This document shows, piece by piece, positions 48,750 to 54,992 of a stretch of 64,000 bases of DNA. Numbering within the stretch: the first letter of the stretch is position 1; each line of letters starts with the position of its first letter. The notes beneath the pieces were generated by a model. It was not told where the DNA came from. It was given only the letters and a program-made list of their open reading frames with translations, and did not search any database. Both the position numbers and the translations under genes were made by a program. The stretch comes from Bacteroidales bacterium (GTDB lineage: Bacteria; Bacteroidota; Bacteroidia; Bacteroidales; GCA-2748055), in assembly GCA_029931975.1 (NCBI GenBank), contig JAOZQY010000008.1, positions 9,515-73,514 of the forward strand, in the 5' to 3' direction.

Positions 48750-49394
48750 TCAGGGTTTCTCCTTCTTTTCAACAAAACGGCAGAGGTGACTGATTTCACA
48801 ACTGTTGCATCGGGGATTACGAGCTGTACATACATAGCGTCCGTGGAGAATCAACCAGTGGTGAGCCCGTGCAATCTTGTCTTCGGGGATATGCTTGATA
48901 AGTTGCATTTCAGTCTCATAGGGATTTTTCGCACCCGTGGTCAGTCCGATCCGGGCAGCCACCCTGAATACATGAGTGTCCACAGCCATGGCTGGTTTAT
49001 CAAAGGCTACTGATAGGATTACATTGGCTGTTTTTCTCCCCACGCCGGGTAGTTTCTGCAGGTCTTCCATAGTATCGGGAACTACACCATTGAAGCTTTG
49101 TTTCAGCATACGGGCCATACCCAGAAGATGTAAAGCCTTGTTGTTGGGATAGGAACAACTTTTAATCAATCCAAAGATCTGATCCTTTGTGGCAGTCGCC
49201 AGGGAGGAAGCATCAGGAAACTGTTTGAAGAATGGGGGGGTGATGATGTTGACCCGTTTGTCAGTGCACTGTGCCGACAGGATCACCGAAACAATCAGTT
49301 CGTAGGGGTCCCTGTAGTCCAGTTCGGTTTCTGCAACAGGCATTGCCTCTGAAAAATAGTCGATCACCTTTCTAAAACGTTCTTCCCTTTTCAT
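48750..49394 (-). CDS. nth: Endonuclease III
   Basis: A 214-residue base-excision DNA glycosylase/AP lyase for oxidised pyrimidines. The helix-hairpin-helix LPGVGRKTANVIL near residue 114 carries the catalytic Lys, and VDTHVFRVA near residue 137 carries the catalytic Asp. The C-terminal [4Fe-4S] cluster Cys are spaced C-x6-C-x2-C-x5-C (CTARNPRCNSCEISHLC). Full length. Confidence 0.96.
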   Translation of the reverse strand: MKREERFRKVIDYFSEAMPVAETELDYRDPYELIVSVILSAQCTDKRVNIITPPFFKQFPDASSLATATKDQIFGLIKSCSYPNNKALHLLGMARMLKQSFNGVVPDTMEDLQKLPGVGRKTANVILSVAFDKPAMAVDTHVFRVAARIGLTTGAKNPYETEMQLIKHIPEDKIARAHHWLILHGRYVCTARNPRCNSCEISHLCRFVEKKEKP

Positions 49395-49435: not shown

Positions 49436-49465
49436 TTTCAGTTTGTTACGATGTTTGCTATTTTG
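49436..49465 (+). promoter_or_regulatory. Possible promoter of the aromatic operon
   Basis: TTTC at 49436-49439, a 19-base spacer and TATTTTG at 49459-49465 resemble the Bacteroidota pattern with mismatches. The start point would be about 30 bases before the leader peptide ATG. Confidence 0.28.
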
Positions 49466-49503
49466 CTAATAAATGTTTAGATTTACATCCGAATATAACA
49501 GAC

Positions 49504-49554
49504 ATGGTAGTAAGAAGCTCCGTATATTATTTTTATTTTTTCACCTGTAGATAA
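49504..49554 (+). CDS. Phe/Tyr attenuator leader peptide
   Basis: A 16-codon frame ATG to TAA reading M-V-V-R-S-S-V-Y-Y-F-Y-F-F-T-C-R. Six consecutive codons are Tyr or Phe (tat tat ttt tat ttt ttc). It ends 27 bases before the terminator hairpin and heads an operon for phenylalanine and tyrosine synthesis. This is the layout of a ribosome-mediated attenuator: with scarce charged tRNA-Phe or tRNA-Tyr the ribosome would stall on the run and allow the antiterminator to form. Confidence 0.85.
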   Translation: MVVRSSVYYFYFFTCR

Positions 49555-49557
49555 CTG

Positions 49558-49587
49558 GTCGGGCTTCTTATATATATTGTACCCGGC
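49558..49587 (+). promoter_or_regulatory. Antiterminator stem of the aromatic operon
   Basis: GTCGGG at 49558-49563 can pair with CCCGGC at 49582-49587 (one G-U pair). The same GTCGGG hexamer recurs at 49594-49599 as the right arm of the terminator, so the two structures compete for one left arm. Confidence 0.75.
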
Positions 49588-49605
49588 TCTTAAGTCGGGT
49601 TTTTT
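49581..49605 (+). terminator. Attenuator terminator before pheA
   Basis: ACCCGGC, loop TCTTAA, GTCGGGT, then a T run. It lies between the leader peptide and the first structural gene, 12 bases before the pheA ATG. Confidence 0.85.
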
Positions 49606-49616
49606 GTTTTATACCT

Positions 49617-50456
49617 ATGACCAAAAAGATAGCAATACAGGGAGGATATGGTGCGTTCCACGAGATTGCAGCCCATCATTTCTTTGAAAATGAAGAGATT
49701 GAAATCCTACCCAGGGATACCTTCAGGGATATGGTGATCACCCTAAAGGACAGGCAATGCGATTTCGGAATCATGGCCATTGAAAACTCCCTGGCAGGCA
49801 GTATTATTCCCAATTATAACCTGCTTATTAATACCAGCATGCATATCACCGGGGAAATTTACCTGCGAATCAAACAAAACCTGGTCGTTATGCCCGGAGT
49901 GAAGATTGAAGACCTGGAAGAGGTCTACTCTCATCCCATGGCCATCCTGCAGTGCCAAAAGTTTTTTGATGCCCACTCGGAAATTCGGGTGATTGAAAGC
50001 ATCGATACTGCATTAAGTGCGGAAGAGATTGCAAAATCGAAAGCGCGGAATATGGGTGCCATCTCCAGCAAATTGGCTGCAGAGAAGTACGGGCTTGAGA
50101 TTATAGCAGAGAGCATTGAGACCAATAAGATGAATTATACACGCTTCCTGATCCTGGGGGAAAATGGCGTGGTAACTCCTCCGGAAGAGGTCAATAAAGC
50201 TTCCATATATTTTACAGTGGCACATAAGTTCGGATCACTTTCCAAGATACTTTCCATCCTTTCATACTATGAGATTAATCTGGCCAAGATTCAGTCCATG
50301 CCTATTGTTGGTAAGGATTGGGAATATATGTTCTACGTGGATGTGGAAATTAATGATTATGATATGTATAAAAAATCTCTGGAGGCCATTGGACCTTTTA
50401 CCCCTTCCATTGGCATCCTGGGAGAATATAAAAAAGGTAAATCAGTAATTGAATAA
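49617..50456 (+). CDS. pheA: Prephenate dehydratase
   Basis: A 279-residue stand-alone prephenate dehydratase, the phenylpyruvate branch enzyme. The catalytic domain (about 1-180) begins with IAIQGGYGAFHE and includes GIMAIENSLAGSI and NYTRFLIL, the latter holding the Thr-Arg-Phe catalytic motif. The C-terminal ACT domain (about 195-279, FGSLSKILSILSYYEINLAKIQSMP) gives allosteric control by phenylalanine. No chorismate mutase is fused here; that activity is fused to the next gene. Confidence 0.95.
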   Translation: MTKKIAIQGGYGAFHEIAAHHFFENEEIEILPRDTFRDMVITLKDRQCDFGIMAIENSLAGSIIPNYNLLINTSMHITGEIYLRIKQNLVVMPGVKIEDLEEVYSHPMAILQCQKFFDAHSEIRVIESIDTALSAEEIAKSKARNMGAISSKLAAEKYGLEIIAESIETNKMNYTRFLILGENGVVTPPEEVNKASIYFTVAHKFGSLSKILSILSYYEINLAKIQSMPIVGKDWEYMFYVDVEINDYDMYKKSLEAIGPFTPSIGILGEYKKGKSVIE

Positions 50457-50464
50457 TAAATATT

Positions 50465-51550
50465 ATGGTAGTTGATGTAGCGCTGGAACCCATCACCCAG
50501 GATGGGGAACTGTTTAGTAAACCGGTAATTATGGCCGGCCCGTGCAGTGCGGAGTCTGAGGAGCAGATGTTGAATACAGCTATTCCCCTGGCAAAAATGG
50601 GTATTAAAATATTCAGGGCGGGCATATGGAAGCCCCGTACAAGACCAAATGCTTTTGAGGGCGTGGGTTCCGAAGGGCTAAAGTGGATGCAGACTGTTCA
50701 AGAGGAAACGGGTATGATGGTTACCACCGAGGTAGCCAATGTCAAACATGTTTACGAAGCATTGAAATATGGTGTGGATATTCTATGGATAGGCGCCCGC
50801 ACCTCTGCAAATCCCTTTGCGGTACAGGATATTGCTGACAGTTTACGTGGCGTGAATATCCCGGTGATGATCAAAAACCCTGTAAATCCGGATGTGGACC
50901 TCTGGATTGGAGCCATTGAAAGGATCAACAATGCGGGCATCAAGCAGATGGCTGCCATACACAGGGGTTTTTCCAGTTATGACAAGACACTCTACCGCAA
51001 CGTTCCACAGTGGCAGATTCCCATTGAATTGCGCAGAAGGGTTCCTGAAATGCCCATAATTACTGATCCCAGTCATATATGTGGTAACAGGGAGTTTCTC
51101 TATGATATCTCTCAGAAAGCCATGGACCTGAACTTCGATGGATTGATTGTCGAGACCCACTGTAATCCCGATAAAGCTTTGAGCGATGCCAATCAGCAGG
51201 TGACGCCCGAGGGACTGAAGCGGATTATCGATCGCCTGGTGTTTCGCGATCCAGAGGTAAATGAGGAGTTGATGCTGACCATGGCCGAATTACGTGACCA
51301 GATCGATAAGCTGGATGATAAGATCATCAATCTACTGGAGGACCGAATGAGTGTGTCGGAGAAGATTGGTGCGCATAAGAAAGATAATAATATTACCATT
51401 CTGCAGACCAAGCGATGGGACGATATGTTGAAAACCAGGTTAAATCTGGGCAACAGAAAGGGGCTTAGTGAAGAGTTTATTATTAAATTGTTCCGGTCTA
51501 TTCACCAGGAGTCCATCAATCATCAGACCAGTGTGATGAACGAAGAATAA
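50465..51550 (+). CDS. aroF: DAHP synthase / chorismate mutase fusion
   Basis: A 361-residue bifunctional enzyme. The N-terminal about 260 residues are a short DAHP synthase (AGPCSAESE near residue 22, KPRTRPNAFEGVG, IDPSHICGN-like TDPSHICGNREF), which joins PEP and erythrose-4-phosphate. The last about 90 residues are an AroQ-type chorismate mutase (LRDQIDKLDDKIINLLEDRM, then IGAHKKDN). Such fusions are known in Bacteroidota and allow feedback through the mutase domain. It follows pheA by 8 bases. Confidence 0.95.
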   Translation: MVVDVALEPITQDGELFSKPVIMAGPCSAESEEQMLNTAIPLAKMGIKIFRAGIWKPRTRPNAFEGVGSEGLKWMQTVQEETGMMVTTEVANVKHVYEALKYGVDILWIGARTSANPFAVQDIADSLRGVNIPVMIKNPVNPDVDLWIGAIERINNAGIKQMAAIHRGFSSYDKTLYRNVPQWQIPIELRRRVPEMPIITDPSHICGNREFLYDISQKAMDLNFDGLIVETHCNPDKALSDANQQVTPEGLKRIIDRLVFRDPEVNEELMLTMAELRDQIDKLDDKIINLLEDRMSVSEKIGAHKKDNNITILQTKRWDDMLKTRLNLGNRKGLSEEFIIKLFRSIHQESINHQTSVMNEE

Positions 51551-51554
51551 AGCT

Positions 51555-52580
51555 ATGCAGCAGCTTAGATTGACCACACCCGCGGGAGCATGCGAAATTG
51601 TTGTAGGTGAGCTCCTTTCTTCAGGCCTTCAGACACTGGATCAGGAGCCTGTGCTGATGATTGATGAAAATGTGCTCCGTCTGTATCATGATATTTTTAA
51701 GCCATATAAATCGGTCACTGTGCCATCGGGAGAAGCATCAAAAACACTTCAGACGCTTGGAAGCCTTTACAGGGAGCTGGTAAATCTGGAGGTGGACCGC
51801 TCCACCTTGATTGTGGGAGTAGGTGGGGGACTTGCAACAGATGTAGCTGGTTTTGTGGCTTCCACAATCCTCAGGGGGACACCCTTTGGCTTTATCAGCA
51901 GCACCTTGCTTGGTCAGGTCGACGCCAGCATAGGAGGGAAGAATGGAGTGAACCTGGATGGCTATAAGAATATGATTGGTACTATCCGTCAGCCCTCTTT
52001 TGTTTGGTGCGATCTCTCGCTACTGGGAACCCTGGCACACAAAGAATATGTTTCGGGGATAGCCGAGGTGATTAAATATGGTATCATTCAGGATTTTGAC
52101 TTTATGGATTACCTGGAGGAGCACATGGAAGCCTTGTTGAACCAGGAGATCAGCGTGCTTGAGCATGTTGTTGGCACTTCAGCTGCTATCAAGTCTGATG
52201 TTGTTCAAAAGGACGAAAAAGAATCGGACCTTAGGAAGATATTGAACTTCGGCCATACCATGGGCCATGCCATTGAACGTTACAAGCATCTCCTGCATGG
52301 AGAGGCGGTAGGTCTTGGGATGGTCCTGGCAGCCAGATTATCATACTCAAAGGGACTCCTCTCTGCGCCTGAAGTGGACAGGGTGGAGAAGATGGTGCTC
52401 TCGGCGGGACTTCCTGCTCAAATGAAGCTGGATCCTGATGAGATTTACCAGAATATACGGAAAGACAAAAAGAAGAGCGGGGAGGATGTTCATTTTGTTT
52501 TGCTGAAAGGATTGGGGAACCCGATTATCAGGCCCCTTGCACTGAAAGAACTAAAATCAATTGTTCATGATCTGTGTTAG
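51555..52580 (+). CDS. aroB: 3-dehydroquinate synthase
   Basis: A 341-residue NAD- and metal-dependent enzyme converting DAHP to dehydroquinate. Blocks are PSGEASKTLQT, VGVGGGLATDVAGFVAS, GGKNGVNLDGYKNMIG, AEVIKYG and the metal-binding LNFGHTMGHAIE. It starts 4 bases after the previous stop and overlaps aroD by 14 bases. Confidence 0.96.
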   Translation: MQQLRLTTPAGACEIVVGELLSSGLQTLDQEPVLMIDENVLRLYHDIFKPYKSVTVPSGEASKTLQTLGSLYRELVNLEVDRSTLIVGVGGGLATDVAGFVASTILRGTPFGFISSTLLGQVDASIGGKNGVNLDGYKNMIGTIRQPSFVWCDLSLLGTLAHKEYVSGIAEVIKYGIIQDFDFMDYLEEHMEALLNQEISVLEHVVGTSAAIKSDVVQKDEKESDLRKILNFGHTMGHAIERYKHLLHGEAVGLGMVLAARLSYSKGLLSAPEVDRVEKMVLSAGLPAQMKLDPDEIYQNIRKDKKKSGEDVHFVLLKGLGNPIIRPLALKELKSIVHDLC

Positions 52581-53202
52581 TGTCGCACATATTTCCAGTC
52601 TGGCCGAAGCCATCGATTCGGGAGCCGGCTTGATTGAGCTTCGGCTCGACCTGATCAGGGAAAGTCCCTCAAATCTTTTCCCTCTTGTACCAAAAACCCT
52701 TCAAACCATTGTCACCTGTCGTCCCGGTGTTTTTAGCAACAGTGAAAGGCTGGTGCTGCTGAAAGAAGGAATGAAACTGGGCGCAAACTATGCAGATATT
52801 GAGATAGAAACAAAGGCTGAGGAAATGGAGGAGTTAAGAAAAACAGCAAGCCAGGCTGGTACTTCCTTGATAGTATCTTACCATAACTATATTAGAACTC
52901 CGGACTGTGAGGACATGGAGTCGCTAATGATTGCATGTTATGAGAAGGGCGGGGAGATTGCCAAGATTGCCACTCAGGTAAATGGACCGGAAGATGTCCG
53001 GAACTTGCTGAGTCTTTATAATCTGCCTGGAAAGAAGGTAGTCCTGGGGATGGGGCCGATGGGAAGGATTACTCGTGTGATGGGATCCTACCTGGGTGCG
53101 GAATTCACCTTTGGATCTACCGTAAAGGGGGACGAAACTGCACCGGGACAGTTAACAGTGAAACAGTTGAATGATATTTATAAAGTGATTGATGAATCAT
53201 GA
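52567..53202 (+). CDS. aroD: 3-dehydroquinate dehydratase, type I
   Basis: A 211-residue Schiff-base enzyme making dehydroshikimate. Visible are IELRLDLI (substrate-binding ELR), IVTCRP, SYHNY with the catalytic His region, and IAKIATQV with the Schiff-base Lys. GRITRVMGSYLGAEFTFGS follows near the C-terminus. A TTG two codons earlier is open, but the ATG at 52567 inside the end of aroB is preferred. Its stop overlaps the aroC start (ATGA). Confidence 0.94.
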   Translation: MICVSVAHISSLAEAIDSGAGLIELRLDLIRESPSNLFPLVPKTLQTIVTCRPGVFSNSERLVLLKEGMKLGANYADIEIETKAEEMEELRKTASQAGTSLIVSYHNYIRTPDCEDMESLMIACYEKGGEIAKIATQVNGPEDVRNLLSLYNLPGKKVVLGMGPMGRITRVMGSYLGAEFTFGSTVKGDETAPGQLTVKQLNDIYKVIDES

Positions 53203-54203
53203 ACGCATTCGGTAAATTATTCAGGATCAGTATTTTCGGAGAGTCTCACGGAGAGTCTGTGGGCATAGTTATCGATGGCTGTCCCGCAGGTATTTCATTG
53301 AAACAATCGGATTTCGAAGCTGATTTTTCCAGGAGGAAAAGTGGTGCGAAAGGGACAACTCCCCGACAGGAGCCTGATACACCTCTTATAATGAGTGGCG
53401 TTTTTAATGAGCTCACTACCGGTGCTCCCATAATGATCCTATTCAAAAATACCAATACCCGTTCGAGGGACTACAGTTTGCTGAAGGATATACCCAGACC
53501 GGGTCATGCCGATATGACGAGCAATCAGAAATTTGGCGGATACCAGGATTACCGTGGTGGCGGACATTTTTCGGGACGGCTCACCCTGGGACTAGTGGCT
53601 GCCGGTGTGCTTGCCAAAAAAATTATTGCACCCGCAAGCGTTTCAAGTACAATACTGGAGGTGGGTGGAAGCAGTGATATTGAATTGGCATTGGACAGGG
53701 CCATAGAGAACCAGGACTCCATAGGGGGGATTATTGAATGTAGCATTGTTTCAGTGCCCCCTGGATTGGGGGAACCATTTTTTGATTCAGTGGAGGCGCA
53801 CATAAGCCACATGGTTTTCTCCATACCAGCTATTAAGGGAATTGAGTTTGGTGCAGGCTTTGCTGCTGCAAAGATGACCGGAAGCGAGCATAACGATACT
53901 ATTGTAGCCATCGATGGAACTACCGGAACCAACCATTCTGGTGGGATTAACGGAGGAATCTCCAACGGAAATGAAATCTGTTTCAGGGTGGCAGTTAAAC
54001 CCACATCCAGTACACATCAGACCCAGCATACCATGAATATTACCACGGGCCTGATGGAGGACCTTACCATTGAAGGAAGACATGATACCTGCATTGCACT
54101 GCGGGTTCCAGTGGTGGTCGAAGCAGCGGCGGCTATAGTAATGGCTGATCTGTTGTTGCAAGCACAGAAGGTGGAACGAATTTTCAAACATAAATCTGAA
54201 TAG
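53199..54203 (+). CDS. aroC: Chorismate synthase
   Basis: A 334-residue flavin-dependent enzyme that makes chorismate from EPSP. Signatures are FGESHGESVGIVIDGCPAG at the N-terminus, RRKSGAKGTTPRQEPD, RPGHADMTS, GGHFSGRLT and GTNHSGGINGGISNG. It is translationally coupled to aroD. The shikimate-pathway enzymes AroE, AroK and AroA (EPSP synthase) are not in this window. Confidence 0.96.
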   Translation: MNAFGKLFRISIFGESHGESVGIVIDGCPAGISLKQSDFEADFSRRKSGAKGTTPRQEPDTPLIMSGVFNELTTGAPIMILFKNTNTRSRDYSLLKDIPRPGHADMTSNQKFGGYQDYRGGGHFSGRLTLGLVAAGVLAKKIIAPASVSSTILEVGGSSDIELALDRAIENQDSIGGIIECSIVSVPPGLGEPFFDSVEAHISHMVFSIPAIKGIEFGAGFAAAKMTGSEHNDTIVAIDGTTGTNHSGGINGGISNGNEICFRVAVKPTSSTHQTQHTMNITTGLMEDLTIEGRHDTCIALRVPVVVEAAAAIVMADLLLQAQKVERIFKHKSE

Positions 54204-54209
54204 AGTAAA

Positions 54210-54992
54210 ATGCGTATTGCAATTATAGGAGCCGGGAATATGGGCTCATGGTTGGTGGAGTCTCTCTGCCTCGATTATGAAGTAGGTATATTTGATGTGG
54301 ACCGAAGTAAATTGAAATACTTCTTTAATTCAAGGAAGTTTCTTTACTATGAGGAGATCACGGATTTTTCGCCCGACCTGCTGATCAATGCAGTAGGCCT
54401 TGACAGGACAGTGGCAGTGTTCGATGAGATTATCTCTTATCTGCCAACGGATTGTATCATTGCCGATATAACATCGGTGAAGAGTGGGATGGCCGATTAT
54501 TATAAGAAGGTGGGCCGGCGTTTTGTTTCCACCCACCCTATGTTTGGTCCTACTTTTGGCAGATTAAAAGATCTGAGCAATGAGAATGCCATCATCATTT
54601 CAGAATCGGACGAGGAGGGTAAAACATTCTTCAGGGACTTCTATAGCAGCATGAAGATTAAAATTCATGAATATTCTTTCAAAGAGCATGATAAGACCAT
54701 TGCCTATTCGCTGTCCATTCCCTTCTCATCCACCATGGTGTTTGCTGCCTGTATGAAGGAACAGGAAGCGCCCGGGACTACCTTTAAGAAACATTTCGAA
54801 ATAGCCGAAGGTCTCCTTTCAGAAGATAACTTCCTTCTTTCGGAGATCCTGCTGAGTCCTTACAGCCTGGAACAGGTGGAGCAAATCAGTGAGCAGATGG
54901 AGGCCCTGAAAGGAATGATCAAAGCACGCGACAAAGAGCAGTTAAACGCCTTTTTCCAGGGCTTAAGAACGAATATCGGGTTGAAGTCGTAG
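54210..54992 (+). CDS. tyrA: Prephenate dehydrogenase
   Basis: A 260-residue NAD(P)-dependent enzyme of the tyrosine branch. The Rossmann motif IIGAGNMGSW is at residues 4-13. ADITSVKSGM and STHPMFGPTFG carry the residues that bind prephenate, with the catalytic His in the second. No ACT or chorismate mutase domain. It is the last gene of the aromatic operon and overlaps the converging tilS by 30 bases. Confidence 0.92.
   Translation: MRIAIIGAGNMGSWLVESLCLDYEVGIFDVDRSKLKYFFNSRKFLYYEEITDFSPDLLINAVGLDRTVAVFDEIISYLPTDCIIADITSVKSGMADYYKKVGRRFVSTHPMFGPTFGRLKDLSNENAIIISESDEEGKTFFRDFYSSMKIKIHEYSFKEHDKTIAYSLSIPFSSTMVFAACMKEQEAPGTTFKKHFEIAEGLLSEDNFLLSEILLSPYSLEQVEQISEQMEALKGMIKARDKEQLNAFFQGLRTNIGLKS

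Follow-up and report, generated by a model that had tools for sequence, protein, structure and literature searches.

In enterobacteria, the pheA and trp operons are controlled by attenuators that consist of a leader ORF with control codons, three stems (1:2, 2:3, and 3:4), and a T run. The control codons of pheL in Escherichia coli are Phe codons only, and in the ilvGMEDA and ilvB type, a single leader responds to several products of the same pathway. A work by Lopatovskaya from 2010 may treat Bacteroidetes. According to passages of another 2010 paper, no leader-peptide system was known beyond Proteobacteria and Actinobacteria (PMC2965389); the Lopatovskaya work is cited in an excerpt of PMC4833913. 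Among Bacteroidetes, the Bacteroid-trp RNA (RF01692) is listed as a predicted cis-regulatory element of an amino acid operon (PMC2864571). Sections of a transcriptome study of Flavobacterium psychrophilum report structured 5' elements at pheA and hisG in Flavobacteriaceae, along with strong clues of leader-peptide attenuation at amino acid operons (PMC9723704), and sections of PMC7366714 mention short ORFs in long 5' UTRs. An earlier note on the DNA studied here had called attenuation rarely described in Bacteroidota. Attenuation is not undescribed there, as the Rfam entry and the cited sections of the F. psychrophilum paper indicate.

Here, we analyze the leader region of a pheA operon in a 64-kb stretch of Bacteroidales DNA (the window). 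This region is very probably a ribosome-mediated transcription attenuator for the whole pheA-aro-tyrA operon, with charged tRNA-Tyr and tRNA-Phe as the signals that it senses. Like the enterobacterial pheA and trp attenuators, it has a control-codon leader, three predicted stems, a T run, and a place at the start of a cognate operon. Unlike E. coli pheL, its leader mixes Tyr and Phe codons, and its operon covers the common pathway and both branches. In sensing more than one amino acid, it would resemble the ilvGMEDA and ilvB leaders, with aromatic instead of branched-chain products. It shares with Bacteroid-trp the phylum and the association with an amino acid operon but concerns a different amino acid. 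With the Flavobacteriaceae pheA element it shares both gene and phylum, whereas leader, codons, stems, and wider spread are absent from the cited sections of that paper (PMC9723704).

The 222-base gap between pheA and its divergent 5' neighbor nth (48750-49394, minus strand) contains a promoter-like TTTG-N20-TAGATTTA, the leader ORF, and a hairpin with a T run, all on the plus strand. The predicted -33 element (TTTG, 49454-49457) and the predicted -7 element (TAGATTTA, 49478-49485) are separated by a 20-base spacer and agree with the Bacteroides consensus (-33, TTTG; -7, TAnnTTTG) quoted in sections of PMC7366714. The pattern TTTG...TAnnTTT was kept in 17 aligned relatives, with the TTG of the first element and the T, A, and TTT of the second invariant, and transcription would start at about 49489. 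The leader ORF (MVVRSSVYYFYFFTCR, 49504-49554) runs for 16 codons from an ATG at 49504 to a TAA at 49552-49554 and was kept in all 17 rows of the relatives' alignment, one of which has a GTG start. Its control codons 8 to 13 (49525-49542) specify Tyr Tyr Phe Tyr Phe Phe (YYFYFF), in agreement with the 16-codon leader and six consecutive Tyr/Phe codons of the earlier note. Runs of at least five Y/F codons occurred in only two ORFs of the window when ATG, GTG, and TTG starts were considered on both strands. The other such ORF has 52 codons, lies on the minus strand from 17096, and contains FYFFFF.

Four segments can be assigned around the leader. Segment 1 (TAAGAAGC, 49511-49518) lies inside the leader and has its partner at 49563-49570. 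Segment 2 (GGTCGGGCTTCTTA, 49557-49570) is the antiterminator arm, which overlaps the arm for segment 1. Segment 3 (ACCCGGCT, 49581-49588) is common to antiterminator and terminator, and segment 4 (AGTCGGGT, 49593-49600) forms the 3' arm of the terminator. A terminator hairpin and T run had been claimed 12 bases before pheA. Both are present, and the T's of the run (49600-49605) are invariant in the 17-row alignment, but the distance to the pheA start at 49617 is 11 bases. In the antiterminator, GGTCGGG (49557-49563) can pair with CCCGGCT (49582-49588), a match that includes GTCGGG at 49558-49563 and CCCGGC at 49582-49587. The competing hairpin (49582-49600) has a calculated energy of -10.3 kcal/mol. 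A third stem, 1:2, pairs TAAGAAGC with GCTTCTTA (49563-49570; z = -2.44). Together, the three mutually exclusive stems would make up a full trp-type switch. The classical enterobacterial pheA/trp architecture that had been proposed thus finds support in the sequence, with addition of the 1:2 stem that the proposal lacked.

The attenuator heads a six-gene shikimate/Phe/Tyr operon on the plus strand. Its first gene, pheA, encodes prephenate dehydratase (49617-50456; a PDT match plus a weak ACT match). It is followed by genes for a DAHP synthase fused to a type II chorismate mutase (50465-51550), 3-dehydroquinate synthase (aroB, 51555-52580; above the TIGR01357 cutoff), type I 3-dehydroquinase (aroD, 52561-53202), chorismate synthase (aroC, 53199-54203), and prephenate dehydrogenase (tyrA, 54210-54992; a PDH_N match, under the NCBIfam cutoffs). 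With these six genes, the operon covers the common pathway as well as the branches to Phe and to Tyr, a gene content that fits the suggestion that mixed Tyr and Phe codons suit an operon for both.

According to the mechanism that we propose, RNA polymerase would start near 49489 and a ribosome would enter the leader at once. When Tyr or Phe is short, this ribosome would stall at codons 8 to 11 (YYFY) and cover segment 1. Segment 2 would then be free to pair with segment 3 once the latter is made, segment 4 would be left without a partner, and the polymerase would continue into pheA. When Tyr and Phe are ample, the ribosome would reach the stop codon and cover segment 2, allowing 3:4 to form and transcription to end at about 49605. 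Without translation of the leader, 1:2 would form and 3:4 would again terminate.

We modeled these states with an assumed ribosome footprint of -18 to +13 from the A-site codon, an E. coli-like value. For the window, the modeled probability of 2:3 was 0.72 with the ribosome at codon 1, 0.98 to 0.99 at codons 2 to 11, 0.23 at codon 12, and at most 0.01 from codon 13 on. Without a ribosome, 1:2 formed (0.99) and the probability of 2:3 was 0.00. The drop at codon 12 arises in the model because the rear edge of the ribosome releases segment 1, and it was unaffected by an assumed front reach of +9 to +15 or by the start site. Stalls at codons 12 and 13 would not antiterminate. Because 2:3 is just as probable at codons 2 to 7 (0.98 to 0.99), the model can tell an early ribosome from a late one but not a stall on Y/F codons from some other early pause. 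Across the 90 representative attenuators described below, the modeled probability of 2:3 was 0.73 for a stall at the first Y/F codon, 0.75 at the middle one, and 0.69 at the last; it was 0.15 with the ribosome at the stop codon and 0.52 without a ribosome. The value at the middle Y/F codon exceeded that at the stop codon by more than 0.1 in 85 of the 90 and fell more than 0.1 below it in one. At modeled equilibrium, 3:4 dominated in nearly every ribosome state of the window (0.57 to 1.00) and, for the full leader, in all states of the representatives (means of 0.72 to 0.93), so antitermination must be kinetic, with 2:3 forming first.

To characterize the distribution of such leaders, we used a relaxed detector that called an ORF of 7 to 45 codons with at least five Y/F in eight codons and a terminator within 80 nt, in the 400 nt before pheA. 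A first set of loci was picked by PheA similarity (the best 80 of 554, plus relatives); after removal of 9 duplicates and 3 loci cut by contig ends, 111 of 123 loci remained, which represent 107 clusters without a common exact 80-mer. A Y/F leader with a terminator preceded pheA at 109 of these 111 loci, which are not a random sample, and at 38 of 41 sampled class-mates. The same was true of only 4 of 39 loci from other classes, which were hand-picked among the matches listed and are likewise not random; the remaining 35 were without a Y/F leader by this detector. Applied to reverse complements, it called 4 of 111, 0 of 41, and 0 of 39 loci, respectively. Among dinucleotide shuffles, it called 1 of 1,110 from the first set, 0 of 410 from class-mates (together, 1 of 1,520), and 0 of 390 from other classes. 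There were no calls inside pheA (0/111) or at -900 to -500 (0/109). A stricter detector retained 100 of the 111 loci and called none of their reverse complements (0/111) or shuffles (0/1,110). Two records were common to the first set and the class sample (L125 and L129 share exact upstream 80-mers with L060 and L099). Jointly, the two samples comprised 146 clusters without common 80-mers, of which 141 had an attenuator at pheA. Leader frame and Tyr/Phe run are thus conserved in related pheA leaders, the comparison by which the earlier note had proposed to check its reading. Named records in the sample belong to Bacteroidales, Marinilabiliales, Chitinophaga, Saprospiraceae, Hymenobacter, Flavobacteriaceae, and Capnocytophaga, from which we infer that the sampled class is Bacteroidia. 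The two first-set loci that the detector failed to call were L065, which has YIYYF before a terminator, and L056, which has no visible leader, yet a class-type PheA.

In a PheA tree built from 30 chosen sequences, a single branch (support, 100/99) split the 21 with a leader from the 9 without. The other-class loci with a leader (L130, L131, L151, and L164, from genomes G216, G074, G126, and G193, respectively) encode class-type PheA proteins that group among the class sequences, that of G216 deep in a Chitinophaga-like group. Horizontal transfer of the operon with its leader, or misbinned contigs, would explain these carriers. Three of 44 class-mates with a PheA match (G072, G155, and G250) had no Y/F leader within 1.5 kb and encode a different PheA type, with an FLGP or YLGP start.

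Segments 2 and 3 coevolve across the class. In 173 attenuators from 151 loci, we folded the stretch that begins at the last Y/F codon and ends with segment 3 and compared it with 150 shuffles of the part before segment 3. The mean z was -2.74, and in 125 of the 173, at most 7 of the 150 shuffles were as good. Dropping three overlapping alternative ORFs left 170 rows, from which we chose 90 representatives under 60% leader similarity; these had a mean z of -2.83, and 70 passed the same limit. When segment 3 was exchanged between loci, the native partner paired better (mean percentile, 0.88; P = 1e-16). The positive control, segments 3 and 4, reached 0.97, and the negative control, the stretch before the ORF, gave 0.54 (P = 0.12, n = 88). 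For 1:2, the swap percentile was 0.70 (P = 7e-8) and z was below -2 in 30 of the 90 representatives; the protector stem is not a feature of every one. The letters of 2:3 also differ between distant relatives while the stems are kept, with GTCGGG:CCCGGC in the window and AGGATT:AATCCT in L147, L149, L153, L154, and L160. Within the window's own genus, the antiterminator was no better than shuffles (L001, z = -0.24). In a 17-row genus alignment, 3:4 was paired in 97% of cells and 1:2 in 63%, the latter not above shuffles, and neither 3:4 nor 2:3 had any pair changed on both sides. The sequences of the genus are too conserved to yield a covariation signal. The antiterminator proposed in the earlier note is supported across the class, by z and by the swap test, but gives no such signal in the window's genus alone. 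Loss of both leader frame and competing stems in relatives had been named as evidence against an attenuator; both were kept across the class.

The position of the control codons relative to segment 2 was tightly constrained. The gap between the final Y/F codon and segment 2 had a median of 14 nt (5 to 95%, 9 to 24; SD = 4.5; n = 90), compared with a median of 18 (SD = 17.6) in a shuffled null (Kolmogorov-Smirnov P = 9e-12); distances below zero were excluded from this test by construction. The stop codon was far less fixed (SD = 13.7), so segment 2 holds its distance to the control codons, not to the stop. Among the 90 representatives, Y/F codons were concentrated about 3 to 13 codons before segment 2 and fell off sharply within three codons of it. 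This placement agrees with a model in which ribosome stalling keeps segment 2 accessible. As far as sequence can tell, the hallmarks of trp-, phe-, and his-type attenuators are thus present: a cognate leader ORF, a terminator, 2:3 (class-wide), 1:2, and control-codon spacing.

Leaders of other amino acid operons in 25 class genomes matched their own products. A His leader with a terminator was found at 9 of 12 hisG loci, a Trp leader with a terminator at 10 of 22 trpE/pabB-like loci (by a loose rule, two in four), and a branched-chain leader with a terminator at 3 of 11 ilvD loci, plus one by a Thr/Ile rule. None of the 17 homoserine dehydrogenase loci in these genomes had a Thr/Ile or branched-chain leader by these rules. 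The Y/F rule gave 0, 0, 0, and 1 matches at the hisG, trpE/pabB-like, ilvD, and homoserine dehydrogenase loci, respectively. The window's genome combines Phe/Tyr, His, Trp, and branched-chain leaders, the last three likewise with terminators at hisG (MRFYRQHSVHHPYHLVG; L211), trpE (MTNIRTNWWWQSCIQRPEHR, with WWW; L228), and ilvD (MLNNILYILLVVLVLVIDPELA; L247). Of the 90 representative aromatic leaders, 89 contain both Tyr and Phe (22% F and 15% Y among residues). Because W makes up only 1.6% of leader residues, we rejected the idea that Trp is sensed in addition to Tyr and Phe.

These leaders bear on a rival reading in which the T-rich tract acts as an RNA element, such as a protein site, its A/T-rich sequence yields Y/F codons as a by-product, and the hairpin is an ordinary terminator. 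The tract is indeed very T-rich, and in its T-richest 24 nt the Y/F codon count exceeded that of shuffles only moderately (5.86 versus 4.20 of 7, with 8% of shuffles attaining the mean). We nevertheless consider this explanation very improbable: the non-T bases of the tract are codon phased, with 236 of 300 A's at the second and 216 of 257 C's at the third leader-frame position, the ATG frame is kept in distant relatives, with constant spacing between the Y/F run and segment 2, and the His, Trp, and branched-chain operons have leaders of their own amino acid.

Translational control, with the hairpin masking the pheA start until a leader ribosome opens it, is likewise very improbable. In some relatives the hairpin does lie within 7 to 20 bases of pheA. 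T runs follow the hairpins, though, and the distance from the 5' arm to pheA varies widely (5th percentile, 34 nt; 95th percentile, 224 nt). Among the 44 class-mates with a PheA match, moreover, all 41 that were fetched had a leader, at pheA in 38 and at the operon start in 3. In these three genomes (G254, G136, and G171), which have none at pheA, a 31-codon leader (e.g., MLITAAIYFTFFYFYFRSQSRIGAVYCLAKN) and a strong terminator lie 3.6 to 3.7 kb upstream, before a rearranged operon with the order DAHP synthase/chorismate mutase-aroB-aroA-pheA (Pfam support for the intervening genes in G136). The leader therefore tracks the operon start, not pheA as such, and a hairpin about 3.6 kb before pheA argues against masking of its start. 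In G171 (L206), a second DAHP synthase-like ORF was seen by eye upstream of the leader, about 4.9 kb before pheA. Least probable of all is a T-box, protein-controlled, or other nonribosomal attenuator: a terminator and antiterminator alone would fit it, but no Rfam family reached its gathering score in the window, T-box was absent from 23 matches to an E value of 10, and the cognate codons and their spacing would go unexplained.

The proposed ribosome-mediated attenuator has no sequence relation to its enterobacterial counterparts. The Rfam Phe_leader model (RF01859) scored 15.5 bits against the window (cutoff, 55; E = 3), and the Bacteroid-trp model (RF01692) had no match in the window or its genome; the trpE leader of that genome (L228) escaped this model. 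Across 18 loci, no Rfam match at gathering score overlapped the attenuator, and Flavo-1 (L153) and Acido-Lenti-1 (L110) matched elsewhere. The kind of attenuator is already known. The mixed Tyr/Phe specificity, class-wide reach, spacing rule, and tandem form were not found in the open-license literature, the scope of our search, with subscription papers outside it; nor was any paper found there that links tyrosine codons with leader attenuation. Within that literature, these four features appear to be new.

If the locus has been read correctly, it reveals regulatory logic for aromatic amino acid synthesis throughout a large class, with one sensor that reads a shortage of Tyr or Phe at once. 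Leader ORFs that annotation now misses could then be called by their cognate codons, the last of which should lie about 14 nt ahead of an antiterminator arm. The attenuator would also offer a natural switch for testing ribosome-RNA polymerase coupling in Bacteroidota, because it works only if the leader ribosome keeps up with the polymerase. We give an even chance to the broader view that Bacteroidia use leader-peptide attenuation as a general control of amino acid operons, with their own two-amino-acid aromatic leader and, in some lineages, stacked attenuators that would steepen the response. Such general use would demand close ribosome-RNA polymerase coupling in bacteria that lack classical Shine-Dalgarno use.

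Complete attenuators stood in pairs, one after the other, at 19 of 151 loci, 18 in the first set and 1 in the class sample, with two pairs sharing 80-mers (L022, L024, L026, L027, L050, L052, L067, L073, L075, L076, L078, L085, L087, L088, L090, L094, L100, L122, and L124). If both attenuators function, the series would multiply two termination steps and yield a steeper response. The Tyr share did not differ between first and second leaders (0.43 versus 0.45, P = 0.76). Two leader-terminator units were also seen at L097 and L140, and inspection of L169 by eye showed another Y/F leader and its hairpin.
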